64,000 nucleotides of DNA from Odiellus spinosus (taxonomy: Eukaryota > Arthropoda > Arachnida > Opiliones > Phalangiidae), in contig OY987228.1 in NCBI GenBank assembly GCA_963920705.1, forward strand, positions 18,980,565 through 19,044,564. Direction: 5' to 3'. This document shows, in pieces, positions 1-32,573 of the stretch (within the stretch, counting starts at the first letter, position 1; every line of letters starts with the position of its first letter). Position numbers and translations under genes: made by a program. The notes beneath the pieces were generated by a model. It was not told the DNA's origin. It ran no database searches and was given only the letters and a program-made list of their open reading frames with translations.

Positions 1-376
1 TAATTTGAAATCTAGCCAAAATTTGATATAGAAATTCGTTTTATTTTAAAAATTGGCCCAAAAATATCAAAACTGTATAAGATTATTTACTATTTCCATA
101 CAATTTGATTGACAGTTATCTCAGAATTTATAAGATGTTTGATAGGAACATTGTAAAGCTCTAAAAATAGCTTTGAAATGATAAAAACTGCTAACCCTGG
201 GTGGTCACTCCAGAGAGAGAGAAGGGGGTCTGTACAATATTAATATTTCCGAATATAACGCTTGTTTCCGTAACCTGCTACTTTTCTTCTCACTAATGTG
301 AAAGACAACGTAGACACGTCGCACTTGAGCAAAGAGTTTAAAACCTCTTGCTTTTATTTTACTTTTAATAATTTAG

Positions 377-7410: not shown

Positions 7411-9425
7411 ACTTTTTATCAAAAAAGGCTGCGGGCAATTGGATTCCAGAGGATAAGCGTTTTTCTTGTAATTACTTATTTCAAGGATTTTCCCGGACGG
7501 TGCTTCTGCTTGGAGATTATAATTATGTTAATATAAATTAGAGCTTTATATTAAAGCGGTAGGAAAATTGGATAGGTATCGTTATTAAATTAAACGAACA
7601 AACTAACAAAAAAGAATGAGTCATATGTCAAATCTACAGTCCAAACCCAGTTATTGATGTTTCTCTCAGGGTAATCCTATCATTAAGTTGTCAATATTTG
7701 AGTCTATCTAGGGGTGATTTTTATCTATCTACCTTGTTCGTTTTATTGCTCAACATATGATATTAATTTCAAATTCTTGGATCAAATTATTTAAGGCTGA
7801 TATTACCAAATATGTGTAGGTTTTTGGTCATAGACCTTATTTTAAATTGCTTGTTTAATTTTCTATCGCTAGAGGCGCGTAATTTCGTAACCCGTTCCGA
7901 GGATGGGTCTTTCTAGTATAGTTTTTTATTTGGCTGACATGCGTTAGATAATATTTCCATGTTTTTTGAGTACTGTGAGAAATTTTCGTTTAAAAGTTTC
8001 CTGTCTAACGTAATCTTCTCATTCAATATAGTCTGACTAGTCCAGCCCTTAGGCTCAGGAGTTTCCTATCAAAAAATATTTTAAGACCTCTTTAGAAAGT
8101 TTCAAGCGAAAGCCCTCTTTTTTTTTCTTCTACGTAATATATCTTTTGTTGTTGAAATATTGAGGCTAGCGTTACGTTTATGAAGATTTAAGGGAATCTA
8201 TAGTTTTGCCTCACCTATTTTTAAAGTTATCTTCAATTTTTTTTTATAAAACCGGTGAGAATTTAATATAATTCATGGGAGTGCCTTATTAGGTGAGAAA
8301 CCTCCGGGCCAAACTAGGTCGGTTTTTCCCAGAACACCAGTTTAACTGGTGCTTTTTAACAGTTAATATAGCCTCAAGCTACAAGAAGTGCTTTCTCCGC
8401 CAGTCGATCATACCTGTGTAGTCAGTCAGCCTTTTTTTTCTTTCTCATTCCGCGACTTGGCAAGGCCTAGACCCACTTTTATTCACTCGCGTTAACAAGA
8501 TGTTTGACATGAATCGAACCGCGTAGTCTTTAAAAACATTCTCCCATTTCTTCTTTTTTTTTAACGGACCAATGATTTTACACACGGTTTAAAACACTTT
8601 AAAAATTATACGGCACTTCTTAACAGTAAGTTTAAGGCGTGTGCTCTCATCGTATAATTTGTAAAATGCATTCAAGCAAGAATTAACCGCCTGTTGGATA
8701 GTTGGTACGTTAGAAATACGAGGATTAATTAAACTATAAATTTAAAACCCATTTATCTTTTTCCCATTTATCCTTTTAACGCTTCCTCAACACCCTTTCA
8801 ATTACGTTAAAGAGATAGTTGTCGATGATTTTGGGAGCGTTATTTGTACCCTAAAATCAAGGTATTTAAAAATGATAACTAAAAGATCAGGGAAAAGACG
8901 ATTTAAGTGATGCCAAATGGTCAGGAAATTCTAAAATGGCGCTAAAAGGTCAGGGATTAAGTAGAGATTTTAAAAAGGGCACCAAATGGTTAGGGAATGA
9001 TCATTTTTATCAAAAAACTATTTATCCCTGTAAAAATAACTAGTGCAAACATTACTTTAATGAAAAAAAGGTTAGTTTATTATCAAGCTCATTTAAATTT
9101 TTGTCTTGAATCTTTGAGACTGATTTCTTGTCATATTAGTAAATATTTTGCAGAAAATTATACACTTACCATTCTACGAAATGTTTGCTACAGTTTTCGT
9201 TACTATAAATTTGATAATTTAACTATCCCTTAATTTCAATTTTTTTCTATATTAATTTCAGGTTAATGATCTGCCTGGCTGTAGATCAAATTTACAAATA
9301 CCACGATGAGATTGAAATAAATTCATTTAAAATTTGCACTTTTAGTGCCGTTATTAACTTTGGTTGTGATATTACGGCAAGATAATTAAAAATAGACTCA
9401 AGTTTAATATATATTAAAAAAAAAT

Positions 9426-12400
9426 ATGGCGAGCCCGGCTAAAATGAGACCAAAGTCTCAGGAAGCGTATAACGGTAACGATAATGTCGACGAAGAAGAA
9501 GTAGACTCTGCTGGTGTAAATACCGAAGAATTTCACGTGATGAGGATGGAACCTCGTCCCTTTAGACCTTTTAAAACCAGCGAAGAATATCTCTACGCCA
9601 TGAAAGAAGATTTGGCCGAATGGTTAAACACATTGTATAATCAAAATATTACTGTGGATAATTTTTTCGAGAAACTGGAAACGGGTGTCATTGTGTGCCA
9701 GTACGCGAACAACGTTATCCGATTAGCTCAAGAATTGAAATTGACTAGAAAACTAAGCATCCCCATTCCTGATAGGGATGTGGTATATAAGACGGATGTA
9801 CACCCGGGCACGTTCAAAGCTCGCGATAATATCTCTAATTTCATAACTTGGTGCCGAGCCATCAATATTAAAGAATGCCTGCTCTTCGAAACGGACGATT
9901 TGGTTATGAGAAAGAACGAACGTAGCTTTATATTGTGCTTGTTAGAAGTTGCCAGGATTGGAGCGAGGTACGGAATGCCCGCTCCTGTCTTAGTACAAAT
10001 GGAACAAGAAATTGACGCTGAAATAGAGGAAGAAGATACTGAAGGAGAAGGGCACGTTGATAGTGACTACGCTAGGGAAACTGTCATGACTCGCTCCTAC
10101 CAAACCCAGGAACAGAGGATGGCTCAACTTATGGGATTACACGAAAGGGTAATATAAATTTTTTTCACTTTTAGCTTGAAATAGTACGAGACTGCGGGGT
10201 GCATTTTTGCATAGTCTCCACAGTTAATGCTAAATATAAAATTCTATAACATTTTAGAGACAATGTATCTTATTACCAAATGTCTAGGTAGGTCTAGAAA
10301 ACTCCGTAATTTGACAACTTGATATTTATCAGTCTTAACTTGGGGGAGGGGAGTCTATATGGAACTTTATCCTAAGACTTTAGTAGTAATTTGATAAGGT
10401 TTCATTGAAAATTTCCCTTAAAGTGAGAATGCAGCCCCAACAAATGATTTTTTTCCATCAAACTTATTTACAGCTACAAGTTGGTTTTTAACTTAACTCG
10501 CAGTAGGCTTAACAAGGATCCATGGACAATTAAATATCTCTCTGGCAAATCACTTAAGAATTGTGCTTTTTATTCCAACAGTAAAATGCTTTCATCTAAG
10601 TTTAATAGGCTTTTGCTCATTTTCCAAAGACATAATACCATTGATCCTTGTTAAGCCTACTTTTCTAGTAAAAATATATATATTTCTAGGTTAATAAAGC
10701 TCGCGTAATTCGCTGGTGGTATCAAACTCTCCGTGGTTTATTGTTAAGCCTACTTTCTGGCTAAGTTAGAATTAATGGATTAGGTCTATTTATATTGTTT
10801 ATAGAAAATCGCTTGTCTAACTGCATTCTCCCTTCAAAAAGTAAAATATTTGATCCTTCATGTAGGGCTCATATTTGAGCCCTTGACTTTTTTGGTTTTA
10901 AATTATTGGTAATTTGAGTATTGACTTTTGAGGTTTTAATGATTGATAATTTCAAGAGTATATAATGTAACTTCTTAACTATCTAGCCATAAAAATATTT
11001 AGAGTGTTTTTTATCGCTGGCAATGTGCTTTCTCATTGCCTTATCTAGTTATAAATTATAATTGATAAATTTAATGAATTGCATCATGATCAGCAATCTC
11101 CCTTTGTAGCCGCAGTGATGACACATTTTATTGATGGGTAGTAAACACTTAATTGGGGTAATATCGAAGTTTGTTGATGATAATAGTGAATAAAACAATT
11201 TTACTGGTTATAGGCCATTAAGGACGGCATCCTTCAAACAATAAATTTAACATTTTTGATTTAATGAAGGAAAAATGCGTTGCTTCATACGCTATTATTC
11301 AATTTGTTACGCTTTATATGGATTAAAAGTACATTTTGAAGCTTGAATTTATTTTGAGCTTGATTGAGGCTGTCACACATTTTTCATGAACTCCAAATGT
11401 AAATTAAGTAGCATTTTTGGAAAGAACGTTGTAAAAATAATATTTAAAATGTATTTACATATGTCATAGAAAAAATTACAACAAAAGTAAATATATTTTA
11501 TCCCAATTTTTAAAGTCAAAATTACCCAGAATATATCATCACTATGGTTGTGTGGCTATCGAAGAGTCTATAGTTGATTCTCACATGCTCTGAAACACGT
11601 GATAAGGTTGCTTTCGCGCAGTCTTTTTCGTAAAATTACTTAATCCAGCAAGTCCTACATTTCTTACGAATCATCTGTAAATTTCGTTCCATAAATAAAA
11701 TACCAGAAGTCTATAAAATTAAGTCAGGGAAGTTACTATCTACTCTGTAATATCGTAATGTTAAACTAGAAACATGTCTGATCCTGAGCCATAGTGACGC
11801 AAAGGGTTGGTAGAAGTATAGGCTTTAAACCACGTACATTTTTGACAAAGTTACGTAAAATTTCGTAAAGGGCGACATTTTATCGCACTTTTAATTTAAT
11901 AGCCAACCCACGAAAATTCTTTGAGGTCAATACAAGATAGCGCAGTTCAGAAACGTATGAGAAAGCTACTGGATTCTTTTTTAAATACGTAGATTATATG
12001 GTTGCCAATAAGATGAAATGAAGAATTATATGATTAACATTGCGCAATTTCTTGACTCATGCAGCTGATAATTTTGTCTCAAAAATCAAAACAACCATAT
12101 TGGCCTATATACTTTTTAGAATTTAAAACTTATTTGATTGATGCTTGAATTATGTCATATGGTTCTGCATTCGATCAAGTATACCAATTGATTAGCCATA
12201 AGTATCTAATAAATTATATGTATAAAAAATACCGTGTTTTTCACTAAAACTAATCTGTCTCTCTCCCGTATCTGTAGGTCGTTAATCTTCTGAACGGATG
12301 CACCTGTCCTTCGCAATTTCCAATGATAAAAGTATCTGATGGAAAATATCGTATTGGGGATACCAGAGTTTTAATTTTTGTCCGGGTGAGTTGGCGAAGG

Positions 12401-27189: not shown

Positions 27190-28388
27190 ACCGAGTGGGG
27201 AAGAGAATCACGATGTGACGTCACACGAGCAAGCAATGTTTCTCGAAACAAGAGGATAATCCCCTGGGTCTACAAGGATTAGCCGTTAAAACGCGAAAAA
27301 CTAGAACAAAACTGGTCAGATGAATCGATTAAGTGGTTTGTTTCACCCAACTTCGGTGAAAAAAAAAAAAAAAAAAATTTCGTGCTTTCTCGAAAAAGAC
27401 CGCAATAAAATATTCCTCCCCCCAACACCCTAGTGTGAGCCCAAGCTTCACATTTGATTTGATTGGTCAAAAATGTTATGTAGTTCTAATTCCTTTGACT
27501 TTTACTAGTTGACGATTTTAGCTAAGCCAGGCTTTATAGTAAATCGAGAGTATTGTGTCTAAAATTTCTCTTCATTTATCAAAATTTAATCGGAAAATAT
27601 AAGCAATTATTATTGCGTACGCACAAAAGGTCGTAAAGAGGAATTTTTTTTAGGAAGGATTTTAGAAGCCACGTTGGCTGACCAAGTCTTAACGCGCCAT
27701 TGATGTCATGATTTTCATTACGTAAAACATTTTCTTGAACGATGCCAGTTGGGAATGCAGCCTGGTGAGGAAATTTGCTGAGTTTTTATTAGGCAAAAGA
27801 ATGCAGTTTATATTTTTAATACAACAATGAACATCATTTGATAAAAGGTTAGATAACGTTTTTTTTAGCAATTTATAAGCCTCCTAAACTATTTTTAAAC
27901 TGTGTAATAATATTTTGTCGTTATTAATAGAGTCTGGACCAAAAATGAGAAAGGACAAGTAATCTACTGGTACTAATTAAACTGAAGGGACATCACACCG
28001 TATGATTTTTGGATCTCAAAACCGTGAGTTTTAATTTTTACAATTTGTTGGGCCGAGGGAATTGCGTATCATACTGCAAAATCAGTGTGTAAAGGACACA
28101 AAGGGTATAATGTTGTATATACCTTCAAATTAACACTACCGGTTAATGGGATTGCGCTGAATTTTTTAAGTCTCTACAGGACTAAAGGTTACCGTACATT
28201 CAAATGACATTTATTAACCCTACCAAAAAAATATGCTTAATCTTTAAAGCCTGTGCCTCGCCCTTGATGGTAAGAATTATTAGTCATAATATGTAGGATT
28301 GTACGTGGTCCTATAAATTGTATTCAAAGGTATGAGAATATTTAATGTTGACTAAACGGAAAACCCAGTGTTCTTGTTGTTTTTTAAT
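27190..28388. other. Unassigned AT-rich stretch
   Basis: No gene seen. It holds a poly(A) run at 27359-27377 and no other clear structure. Confidence 0.5.
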
Positions 28389-28429
28389 GTCCTCGTATGA
28401 GGGCATTGGCTCGAATCCCACTTCTGACA
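28389..28429 (+). pseudogene. 3' half of a tRNA-Leu
   Basis: The 41 bases correspond to the variable arm, T arm and acceptor 3' strand of a eukaryotic tRNA-Leu: CCTCGTATGAGG still pairs as a variable-arm stem, then CTCGAATCCCACTTCTGACA. Two T-stem pairs are broken and no 5' half (D arm, anticodon) exists upstream, so this is a fragment. CCCA follows, close to but not the CCA added after transcription. Confidence 0.65.
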
Positions 28430-28439
28430 CCCATGTTTT

Positions 28440-29405
28440 GTAAAGTGGGTTATCTTACCAAGTAATTAACGAGATATAACCTAATATCAACTAGCCTTGC
28501 AACTCTTCCCCTTCGTAGCCTTACACCCCTCCTATTCATAGCCTTGCATGCAGGGGGCTAGTGACTCCTTTTCCCCTCAGAGCTTAAAATCGAAGACTTT
28601 ATTTTCAAAAAGTTCTTGGAATATCCAAAATTTGTAAGAATAACAATTTATACCATCCCGTCACCTTGGACCGGAGATTTATACTCCCTTTAATAACATA
28701 GCTGATTTGCATCTCTTGAATGGTCCAATTATTAATTTAGCTTAGGTACTTTGTTCGATTTGACCTTTGACATGCCTGGCCATTGTCGCGAAGGTTTAGT
28801 TACTTGTAATTGGCCTGTTAGATTCCGTCGACCTATTTACTTCTGATTCTATGTAAAAAACAGAAAAAGTATCCATTTTCTCCTATCAGACCTTCTCTAG
28901 AATCAAGAAATTCTTCGCAAGTTAAACGATAATTGGCTTGTGCCCAATCTGTAGTATTTTTTTTTTTTTCTGTATCCTTTCTCTTCGCATTAGTTCTTAA
29001 TCCCCTTTTCACTCCTCTATCCCCCTTATCTTATTGACCAGACCAGAACTGGGTACAAACTTTAAGGCTTAGTCCAAAACAAAATCTATTGATTTTCATA
29101 GCTCCGAGCTAAAACAATCTGGTCTTAAGCCGTGTTGAATCCGCTATATATATTTTTTTAATTTTGATATTGAGTATATAAACTTTTAGAGTGACTGTCC
29201 TTGACCTGATTCGGACCAAATTTATTTCATCTCGGCTAAGTGGGTGAAAAAAAAATTTTTTTTCATCCCTATGTTACTTTATAAATCAAATATAGAAGCT
29301 TGGCCTGGAAAAATAATAAGCGAGTAAAAATTTGACCTTCATGCTACAGGAATTTGGCTAATGTATTCATTCGTCCCTCTCAGAGCATGGAAATTAACCT
29401 ATCCT
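28440..29405. other. Unassigned AT-rich stretch
   Basis: No coding frame or clear repeat boundaries were recognised. Confidence 0.5.
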
Positions 29406-29650
29406 ATCTGCAGGGCTCCCACCAGGTCCCTAAAATACCTAAAACCCCTACTTTTTTTTTTGAGGTCCCTAAACCATCATAAAATCGTGATTTGACTACT
29501 ACGCGCTTGAACGTTAAATCGACGACAGGTTATAACGGCAGTGCTCGCCAGTCTAACGAACGGGACGCCGACTGAAGGAGCATCTAACCCCGGTAAGCTG
29601 TAGCCTAGGCCTAACTCCGTCGGCGATTCGGACTCTCGGAGAGTATCGTC

Positions 29651-29798
29651 ATGCCGCGAATAGATCCGTTTGAAGTTGAACCAGTGTACACGGAAGAAGA
29701 ACTTTTAATTAGAGAGACTACAGGAAGAGCGGAATAATAATGACGGTATCGAAAATTTAATTGACATAGACCAGATGAAAGAAAATTGCACCTGACAA
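29651..29798 (+). pseudogene. Fragment resembling invertebrate P2X7-tail-like zinc-domain ORFs
   Basis: From ATG at 29651 the frame reads MPRIDPFEVEPVYTEEELLI, then shifts frame; the shifted frame reads QEERNNNDGIENLIDIDQMK and ENCT. The I-x-P-(F/Y)-x-x-E-P start and a later WC/NC-type C-T motif resemble small proteins with a P2X7 C-terminal-like zinc domain that abound in some invertebrates. The frame break and early stop mark it as decayed. The recognition is weak. Confidence 0.3.
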
Positions 29799-30316
29799 AC
29801 TCTGTAATCCAACTTCTTCGTAGGCAAAGGCTTAGTATAATACGCGGCTTTCACTGTTTCTTTAGCATATTTTAGCCATTTTGACGCGAGTTCGGGGTAC
29901 TTTAAATGATCAGGAACCGTATAAAAACTTAGTCCAAACCGAGAACTAAAATTTTTGCATTCTTTTATAATACAACTTTTTTTTTTTTTTTTTTTTTTTT
30001 TTTCGGCGTGTAACGTAACGTCTTTACGCCCGGACAGCGGTCGCGATTGCGAACCAGGTGTGGCGCCAAGGCGTAAGGCCTTGAGCAACTCAGTTATGGT
30101 AAGTAACTACGCAGGGATTAGGACTGGGAATTGCCCACGCGACGGAAGGAGATGGGAATGGGGAAGAGGAAGGACCATTCCGTCGCGGACCATTCGCAAC
30201 ACTTCCTATGGGCAAGGGACCTGCGATTCGAGCAGGACAACACCCAGACCTTGCCACTGAGACGCCAGTTTACAGGAGTACGCCACCACTCCCGGCTTTA
30301 TAATACAACTTGGCAT
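29792..30316 (-). pseudogene. THAP zinc-finger first exon split by a SINE
   Basis: On the minus strand an ATG (30316-30314) is followed by two codons and then by the SINE; after the second copy of the target duplication the frame resumes. Reading across the insertion gives a THAP-type C2CH module: MPSC, C at residues 4 and 9, P24, W36 (SKWLKY), then YRVCQ with the third C at 63. The spacing Cx4C and 53 residues to the next C fits the THAP rule (35-53). A TGTCAG/GTGCAA donor at 29792 splits the module before its final His. THAP domains bind DNA in host proteins and P-like transposases. Downstream exons were not found. The insertion separates start codon from domain. Confidence 0.6.
29979..30296 (-). 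mobile_element. SINE with 7SL-like 5' end, poly(A) tail and 15-bp TSD
   Basis: A 293-base body (30296-30004, minus strand) ends in a 25-base poly(A) and is flanked by an exact 15-bp duplication, TTTATAATACAACTT (29964-29978 and 30297-30311), the mark of LINE-driven retroposition. The body starts GCCGGGAGTGGTGGCG, as 7SL RNA does. Its first 46 bases can fold like the SRP Alu domain: GCC/GGC, GGAGT/ACTCC around GGTGGCGT, then TGTAA, then ACTG/CAGT. A box-A-like TGGCAAGGTCTGG and box-B-like CTCGAATCG follow. The SRP S-domain motif (GGAA..AGCAG) is absent, so it is not a plain 7SL copy. Confidence 0.75.
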
Positions 30317-31004
30317 TTTGAACTTTCTTTAAAACAACACCGATTAAAAAACGAAGGATTCTAGACTTTACTGTCTCAGACTCTCTCCCCTCGGAGTCTC
30401 ATTTCATTGGTTTATAAGTTATTTCTATTGGCCTATCAGATTGCTAGCCTGGCCAAGCACGACAGAGAAGTTTAGAATTAGGGGCAAAAGGGCCACGTCA
30501 ATACTAAATTTATTTTTAACTATAAAATTATTATTATTATTAAAAATTAATTTTGAGTTATAAATTTCTGTTGCCAAGAGTGCTATTGACCCTTAGAGGC
30601 AAAAAAACTTTATGGGTGAACCATTCCTTTAAGTAACCATATTTCTAGTAAATTTGGTTAAAAGTACCTTCGGCCTATAATATTGAACACAAATTTTATG
30701 CTATATCGAATTTATCCGTTTAAATTTCCCGCTTTTAAAACTGAATAAGTCAGCTGATATAATTATCACGTGAGAAAATTAAAGTTAGGTTTGTGATAAA
30801 ATTGTTTTTCTAAAAAATCTACTTTAAAAGTCATTTTGTGAAAATTAAATATGCCATTTCTTATTTGGTTCCTATTTGCTCCCTATTTTAAAAATTTTGG
30901 TTAATATTTCATCCTATTTCAGGCCTGAAAAATCCCCTGTTTCCCTTTTTTTCTGATTTTGATAGGAGCCCTGCCGTTAAAATTATTCATTCAATCTACA
31001 TAAA

Positions 31005-31760
31005 TTAATTTTCAGTATTTAAATACGCTGTAAAATAACTCGTATTCATGAAAATCCAAACTTATTTCCAACCATATTGTATTTCGTCATTTTCGGACTC
31101 TCGGTTCATTTCGGGGTCACGTGACGTGGCTGCGCTCTTATGAGCCCGGCGCGCGCCAAAAGCTACTAAGCCTTTTATGACTGATTTCAAAACGGCCGAG
31201 GCTCCGCTCTTCTCGTCCAAAAATGTTTAAAATTTCGAGATTTAAGTGCCTAACGATTGTCTTTAGTGTTTTTTTTTACAAATGTAACCGTTAAAATTAA
31301 TCGGTAAATGGTAAATTAGTCGACGTAGGTGTTCTGGATTATTCCACCGTTCTTGTTAATTTAAAATTCCAATGCCAGCGTTCTCTATGGGTTATTATCG
31401 CTATTCGTAATTTCGAAGGATTTAAGGATTCGTGTAAGGTAAATCAATTCTCATGTTTAATTAAGATCAGTTCTATTTTATAAATAATGTATTCGAGGAA
31501 GTATGCTATACTCTAATTTGTCGTAGTGAGTGCTATTTATTTTATGATTGAGATTTGGTGAAACAAGTTGGCGCAAATCCGACTATTTAAGCAAATTGGC
31601 TAATAATTAATTTAAAGTAAGAGAGCGTTTTCTATGATTAGAACAGCGGAACGTATATTTCTAGATTTTAAATCAAATTTGGAATTTGCCTACTTCTCCG
31701 GCTCGGATATTGTCCTCCTTTTCTCTCGTCTGTTTCCATCGGCGTCTCCTCTCTCCCCTT
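31005..31760 (+). repeat. Direct duplication, copy 1 (CpG-rich core and splice donor)
   Basis: Homologous to 31826-32573 with an offset of about 830-840. It carries CTCGGTTCATTTCGGGGTCA, a GCCCGGCGCGCGCC core, and GATTCGTGTAAGGTAAATC, which reads as a donor. No shared long open frame: the ATG after CTTCTCGTCCAAAA opens 17 codons here but stops after six in copy 2. Confidence 0.75.
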
Positions 31761-31825
31761 AGCTATAGTTAAAATATCGGTTCGATTAAGTTTCGTTAAA
31801 TGTTTAACACTAGCTAATTTTACAT

Positions 31826-32573
31826 AAATTCATTTTCAATATTTAAACTCGCTTTAAAATAACTCATTTTCATGAAAATTCAAACTTCATTTTCAGCCTT
31901 AGCGTAATCATAGAGGGTAGAAAGGTCATTCTCGGTTCATTTCGGGGTCACGCGCAGTGGCTGCGCGCGCCGCCTCGGCGCGCGCCAAAAGCTAAGCCTT
32001 TTTTGACTGATTTCAAATACGAGTTAAGCCTAACGGCCGCGGTTCCGCTCTTCTCGTCCAAAAATGTTTTCAATTTCGCGATTTTAAGTGCCCAACTATT
32101 GTTTTTAGTGTTTTTTACAAATGTAACCGTTAAAATTAATCGCGAAACAGTGAATTGGTCGACATAATTGTAGTTCAGGATTATTTCACCGTTCTTGTTA
32201 ATTTAAAATACCAATGCCAGCGCTATGGGTTATTATCGCTATTCGTAATTTCGAGGGATTTAAGGATTCGTGTAAGGTAAATCAATTCTCATCTTTAATT
32301 AAGATCTGTTCTAATTTATAAAAATGTATTCGACGAAGTAATTTTAAGCTATTCTGACGGAGTAACGGAATATTATTCAATTTGTCGTAGTTTTAATTAT
32401 ATTATGATTCGGATTTGGGGAAAAGAGGCGGCGCAATTCCGGCTATTTAAGCTAAACTGTTAATAATTGAAAGTAAGCAAATATTTTCTATAATAAGACT
32501 CAATTTTACTAAAAACATTTCGCTCTCCTTTTCTCTCGGCTGTTTCCGTGGGCGTCTTCTCTCCCCCTTCAGT
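31826..32573 (+). repeat. Direct duplication, copy 2
   Basis: Second copy; the blocks around the CpG core (GGCGCGCGCCAAAAGCTA), TGTAACCGTTAAAATTAATC, the splice-donor block and a CT-rich end (TTCTCTCGGCTGTTTCC) are kept in order. Small indels explain the varying offset. Confidence 0.75.

Follow-up and report, generated by a model that had tools for sequence, protein, structure and literature searches.

What kind of element is a poly(A)-tailed insertion in the genome of Odiellus spinosus (Arachnida; Opiliones), and from which RNA did its head arise? The insertion lies in a stretch of 64,000 nucleotides (the window; forward strand of contig OY987228.1, positions 18,980,565 to 19,044,564) of a genome of 443 Mb in 286 contigs, the window being part of contig C4 in our numbering. 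A preliminary description, made from the letters alone, had taken it for a SINE with a 7SL-like head. In the literature searched, 7SL-derived SINEs are verified only in some mammals and in hagfish (PMC7245038). We conclude that this arthropod element is a SINE derived from 7SL RNA (SINE1-type) and was active recently, and give this reading a probability of roughly 0.85.

The insertion and its family

The SINE occupies the minus strand of the window from 30296 to 29979 (29979..30296 with its A-tail) and represents one insertion of a dispersed family with near-identical copies elsewhere in the genome. Read from the window letters, it consists of an element body of 293 nt (nt 1-293, 30296-30004) and a poly(A) tail of 25 A (29979..30003), both on the minus strand. 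A target-site duplication of 15 bp, TTTATAATACAACTT, stands on both sides, one copy before the head (30297..30311) and one beyond the A-tail (29964..29978); the poly(A)-tailed insertion with a 15-bp duplication, as originally described, is therefore borne out.

The host genome holds several hundred copies of this SINE. Allowing up to three mismatches, 28-mers of the head and of the body were located at 362 and 345 places, respectively; the box-B region gave 299 places and tail A plus four A gave 185, while the reversed control of each gave 0. A similarity search in which the best 40 of 420 candidates were scored returned at least 42 matches with 98-100% identity, and two of them, located on other contigs, agree with the window copy at every one of 294 nt. 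The family has been recently active, since 36 of 37 distinct full-length copies deviate from the majority at only 0-6 of 294 nt (the remaining one is 79 nt off). Dispersed copies with a tail and target-site duplications, a feature of SINE1 families, were also found: when the head boundary may vary by up to 2 nt, 40 of 42 copies carry an exact duplication of 10-15 bp, which measures 13 or 14 bp in 34 of these 40, and without this tolerance, in a slightly different selection, 34 of 39 copies do so compared to 37 of 1406 mismatched flank pairs. The duplication begins with A in 33/34 cases and has A as its second letter in 26/34, a bias that is partly built in because the boundary between a target A and the A-tail cannot be placed.

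At least four subfamilies share a common 5' part (approximately nt 1-195) and differ in their 3' tails. The window copy has tail A (minus strand, 30004..30089, approximately nt 208-293 with an approximate start), which ends in a hairpin-like manner (CGGGCGTAA...TTACACGCCG) and differs in the other subfamilies. Tail B, related to A, was seen in L096, L101, and L102, the flanks of the latter two being identical, so that they perhaps represent one insertion; tail C characterises L095, L097, and L100, and tail D L072, L079, and L099. Copy L098 is tailless, with an A-rich run right after the Alu-domain part and a duplication of its own. Tails C and D occur at 41 and 28 genome places, respectively (up to three mismatches). 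No partner LINE was found for any tail, either among the tail-C matches scored (40 of 74 candidates, each of which also matched SINE sequence lying upstream of the tail) or for tails A-D in the fetched DNA, where nothing outside SINE copies appeared at E 0.05. A candidate LINE close to a tail-C site on C14, with a reverse-transcriptase match about 3.5 kb away on the same strand, was rejected because the upstream SINE sequence matches there too.

Several copies lie in unusual settings. Three copies in the same orientation, spaced by 331-335 bp, apparently form a tandem of whole elements (C8:20192527-20193489), and six heads on one strand of C1 (17770767-17832496, including L098), about 12-14 kb apart, probably mark a segmental repeat containing the tailless SINE. 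One copy (L074) is split by an insert of about 300 nt that looks MITE-like by eye, with long terminal inverted repeats (AAGGATCAGATAAGGAGAGG...) and TTGCCCATAG repeated at both ends. An older copy (L069; 83% over 215 nt) lies near a 94% copy on the opposite strand and has yet another 3' ending. The exact head occurred 0 times in a collection of viral contigs from which records of the host or its close kin may be left out. Elsewhere in the window, an open frame on the plus strand (9408-10157) encodes a calponin homology domain (Pfam CH, E = 2.8e-14) and is presumably GAS2-like. A 30-mer of TTAGG, the repeat that forms the telomeres of insects and of many further arthropods, occurs 9597 times in the genome (control 0), as befits an arthropod host, and the last of the places listed (at least 100, all on C1) form a dense tract no more than 4 kb from the contig end.

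The head and the 7SL genes of the host

A search of window positions 28000-32000 (4001 bases, both strands) against 4227 Rfam families matched the element to Metazoa_SRP with 41.4 bits (E = 1.8e-8). This is below the gathering score of 70 for the SRP family, and a default Rfam scan of the window therefore lists nothing. The only further match up to E = 5 (E = 4.2) lies outside the element and is taken as chance. The SRP match was repeated at 40.2-45.3 bits in all eight other SINE copies given, with alignments that skip the S domain. The score comes mainly from the head, since L099 reaches 40.2 bits even though the 5' strand of helix 5 is missing from this copy. Neither Rfam (4227 families) nor ARAGORN detected a tRNA in the element, nor did these checks detect 5S rRNA; a head of either kind, as SINE2 and SINE3 elements possess, was thus not found, and the preliminary description's own counter-argument, a better fit of a tRNA or 5S head, did not materialise.

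The host itself has at least 26 full 7SL loci scoring 202.5-228.2 bits (26 scored of 2761 candidates). Apart from L009 and L010, they all (24 of 26) belong to one tandem 7SL RNA gene array with 457-bp spacing that extends over at least 53 kb of the same contig as the window (C4:16573823-16627040, L011-L034). The commonest type accounts for 20 of the 26 scored loci, and comparison with it, proposed beforehand as a check, did reveal a resemblance to the 7SL-derived head (nt 1-44; minus strand, 30253..30296), which Rfam, the alignment with host 7SL, and the fold assign to helices 2, 3, and 4 of the SRP Alu domain: 24 of 27 positions are identical over nt 1-27 and 33 of 44 over nt 1-44 without gaps. 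A 5' head from 7SL RNA, another SINE1 feature, is supported by the Rfam match, these identities, and the paired changes described below.

Of the 11 differences from the commonest host type in nt 1-44, 10 belong to five base pairs in which both partners changed. Four pairs are compensated, being standard in both host and SINE (U3-A42 to C-G, U28-A41 to A-U, C30-G39 to U-A, and A31-U38 to G-C, from host to SINE), while the fifth replaces a host mismatch (C10/A17) by G-U in the SINE and by G-C in the L095 type. The two-sided changes thus fall in helices 2 and 4, except for a single pair of helix 3, which most host genes leave mismatched. Compared with host gene L009, identity is 32/44 with only three compensated pairs. 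When host gene L010 was substituted at random, four compensated pairs arose in 10 of 200,000 trials, and in 172 of 200,000 when changes were confined to paired columns. Across eight aligned sequences the covariation score was 0.290, a value reached by none of 500 shuffles and by no slid partners (at most 0.166); in the same alignment the five pairs changed on both sides were matched by 118 of 500 shuffles and the eight further pair types by 425 of 500. Pair 11-16 is not paired in 7 of the 8 sequences, and pair 31-38 is our own addition to the Rfam structure. The descent of nt 28-44 from 7SL is suggested by the gapless register and these paired changes.

The head letters given in the preliminary description are present on the minus strand, and its argument that pairing kept despite sequence change implies descent from an SRP RNA was right in kind. 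It had been built on the helix-3 stem GGAGT/ACTCC as a two-sided change; the stem exists, but it is no novelty of the SINE, as host 7SL genes carry it as well, and the two-sided changes are those listed above. The form GGGAGT/ACTCC is common to all three host 7SL genes aligned and unlike the Rfam consensus. C3 and G10 of the SINE are also the letters of the Rfam consensus, and for this reason host 7SL may have been the one to change at positions 3 and 10.

Predicted fold and non-7SL body

Folded alone and unconstrained, nt 1-180 are predicted to adopt the SRP Alu domain (z = -2.62) with helices 2 (1-3/42-44), 3 (4-10/17-23), 4 (28-31/38-41), and 5 (46-62/161-177). Copy L098 folds similarly (z = -2.13). 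Helix 5 would join a 5' strand at nt 46-62 (minus strand, 30235..30251) to a 3' strand at nt 161-177 (minus strand, 30120..30136), with 15 of 17 positions paired and in register with the SRP structure. A duplex energy as low as its -24.2 kcal/mol arose in 4 of 1000 trials with the downstream part shuffled and in 0 of 1000 with the 5' strand shuffled. In a survey of 42 copies (50 distinct copies minus 8 without the motif that locates the 3' strand), the core helices formed in 38 and helix 5 in 41, compared to 2/300 and 3/300 body-shuffled controls. The Alu-domain secondary structure of SINE1 is accordingly predicted for nt 1-180, whereas the whole element of 294 nt has a different minimum-energy fold in which the head pairs with the tail. 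When three full host 7SL genes were folded, the minimum-energy structure contained the complete set of 12 core pairs for L010 but not for the other two. The loop letters G13, C33, and C36 are present in 8/8 aligned sequences and G14 in 7/8; we take these four to have a role in the loop-loop pairing for SRP9/14.

Between the strands of helix 5, approximately 98 nt (nt 63-160; minus strand, 30137..30234) including box B occupy the place of the S domain. A missing central S domain, also typical of SINE1, is indicated by the Rfam alignments and by the comparison of nt 60-165 with host 7SL, which is no better than shuffles (849 of 1000 score as high), in support of the original view that the rest of the body lacks this domain. 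Sequence homology of the body to 7SL was not supported: over five segments, two of them starting at nt 28, no similarity to host 7SL above shuffles was found (359-849 of 1000 as high). Since no such similarity extends beyond nt 44, the case for helix 5 and the 3' part is a structural one: helix 5 forms in the prediction, and its 3' strand is not alignable with 7SL. Both promoter-like boxes are candidates. The box B-like site of the window copy, GCTCGAATC (nt 64-72; minus strand, 30225..30233), has one mismatch to GWTCRANNC, which we assumed as the box B consensus for scoring SINE copies. In agreement with the box-B-like site noted at the outset, an exact box B (GATCGAATC) occurs in five of the eight copies taken from other subfamilies; L098, L072, and L079 are without it. 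No box B within one mismatch was detected in the first 130 nt of three host 7SL genes. A putative box A, GGAGTGGTGG (nt 5-14; minus strand, 30283..30292), is proposed by analogy with the A box of human 7SL (Kojima 2020, PMC7245038). The window copy has no TTTT, and L079 has one inside the element.

Origin, spread, and relation to known SINEs

The most likely origin is a birth from a 7SL gene of the host lineage, separate from the origins of Alu/B1 and the hagfish family. The main competitor, possible though clearly the less probable course, is a chimera in which a 7SL head of about 44 nt was joined to an older tRNA-derived SINE that contributed box B and body, helix 5 being newly made rather than inherited. 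Such a fusion would agree with the lack of 7SL similarity past nt 44 and with a box B (GATCGAATC) that fits the tRNA-type consensus and sits, by eye, inside a 5-bp stem (CCTGC/GCAGG). However, Rfam and ARAGORN find no tRNA, helix 5 keeps the register of the SRP structure, and the body 28-mer is not commoner than that of the head (345 vs 362), which speaks against a large headless relative. An equivalent proposal of a 7SL head joined to another SINE was made by Kojima for the hagfish family (PMC7245038). A SINE with a true tRNA or 5S head whose first 44 nt resemble 7SL by chance is extremely improbable; SINEs derived from tRNA commonly share such a tandem of box A-like and box B-like sites, yet the SRP match (E = 1.8e-8), neither tRNA nor 5S being matched, the host-specific helix 3, and paired changes that track the SRP structure all contradict it.

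Equally far-fetched are ordinary 7SL RNA retrocopies instead of a SINE family: A-tails and duplications mark retrocopies as well (e.g. P7SL_MD, P7SL_Cpo), but the copies lack the S domain, have a uniform non-7SL body and tail, and fall into subfamilies. That a 7SL SINE was acquired horizontally from another animal is improbable, if somewhat less so. It might explain why identity to the present host 7SL is just 33/44 and why the SINE is nearer to the Rfam metazoan consensus than to the host at 3-42 and 10-17, while the helix-3 stem, that of all three aligned host genes and different from the Rfam consensus, points to the host lineage.

By analogy with Alu, RNA polymerase III would read the element from boxes A and B, and its RNA would fold as the SRP Alu domain, bind SRP9/14, and sit on ribosomes near nascent LINE reverse transcriptase. 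For the docking on SRP9/14 we see about even odds; a search for SRP14 gave 0 matches in the host and equally none in control genomes. A LINE enzyme would then recognise tail and poly(A) and, by target-primed reverse transcription, copy the RNA where the target has been nicked, and tail replacement may let one front end use different LINEs.

Short composite elements of Pol III type with LINE-dependent spread are known from insects, such as the tRNA-/5S-derived HaSE1-3 of Helicoverpa armigera as far as the accessible accounts go; their head RNA differs, the present element having no tRNA or 5S match. In the accessible portion of the text, Petersen et al. 2019 (PMC6327564) report finding Alu in the genomes of 48 arthropods, using RepeatMasker annotation and a check against an AluJo HMM, and an element like the present one is not described in that portion. 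Nor is an arthropod 7SL SINE described in the available parts of PMC9783078, PMC3160391, and PMC8010984. The literature searched, with Repbase, preprints, and most subscription journals outside its reach, contained no verified invertebrate 7SL SINE in the available text of the entries listed. The family could well, with a chance of about one half, represent the third independent birth of a 7SL SINE lineage and the first verified in an invertebrate, its Alu fold kept by two-sided changes and its 3' tail replaced several times.

The closest precedent is SINE1-1_EBu of the hagfish Eptatretus burgeri (Kojima 2020, PMC7245038), a young family that likewise combines a 7SL head with Alu-domain fold, compensatory changes, no S domain, target-site duplications, and a non-7SL 3' part. 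Its 282-bp consensus has an RTE-derived tail and terminal AAC repeats, in contrast to the poly(A) and several tails found here, for which no partner LINE was found. Moreover, the 7SL-like 3' strand of SINE1-1_EBu directly follows the 5' part, whereas here about 98 unrelated nt separate the strands of the predicted helix 5 and the 3' strand is not 7SL-alignable. The element resembles Alu/B1 of Euarchontoglires in its candidate Pol III-type boxes, predicted SRP Alu-domain fold, and poly(A), and also in its tailless copy L098, where the Alu-domain part is immediately followed by a terminal A-rich run. Unlike Alu and B1, which consist of 7SL sequence only (PMC7245038), it has a host-type helix-3 sequence, a non-7SL body and tails, and an arthropod host. 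In Alu/B1 the role of the fold is hard to separate because it is tied to the tolerance of mammalian L1 for any poly(A) RNA (PMC7245038). If the family is indeed such a third birth, docking via the SRP Alu fold would give SINEs a general means of spreading that depends neither on L1 nor on which LINE supplies the enzyme. An arthropod case that combines several tails with a fold kept by paired changes allows a test of whether the SRP Alu fold itself enables spread.
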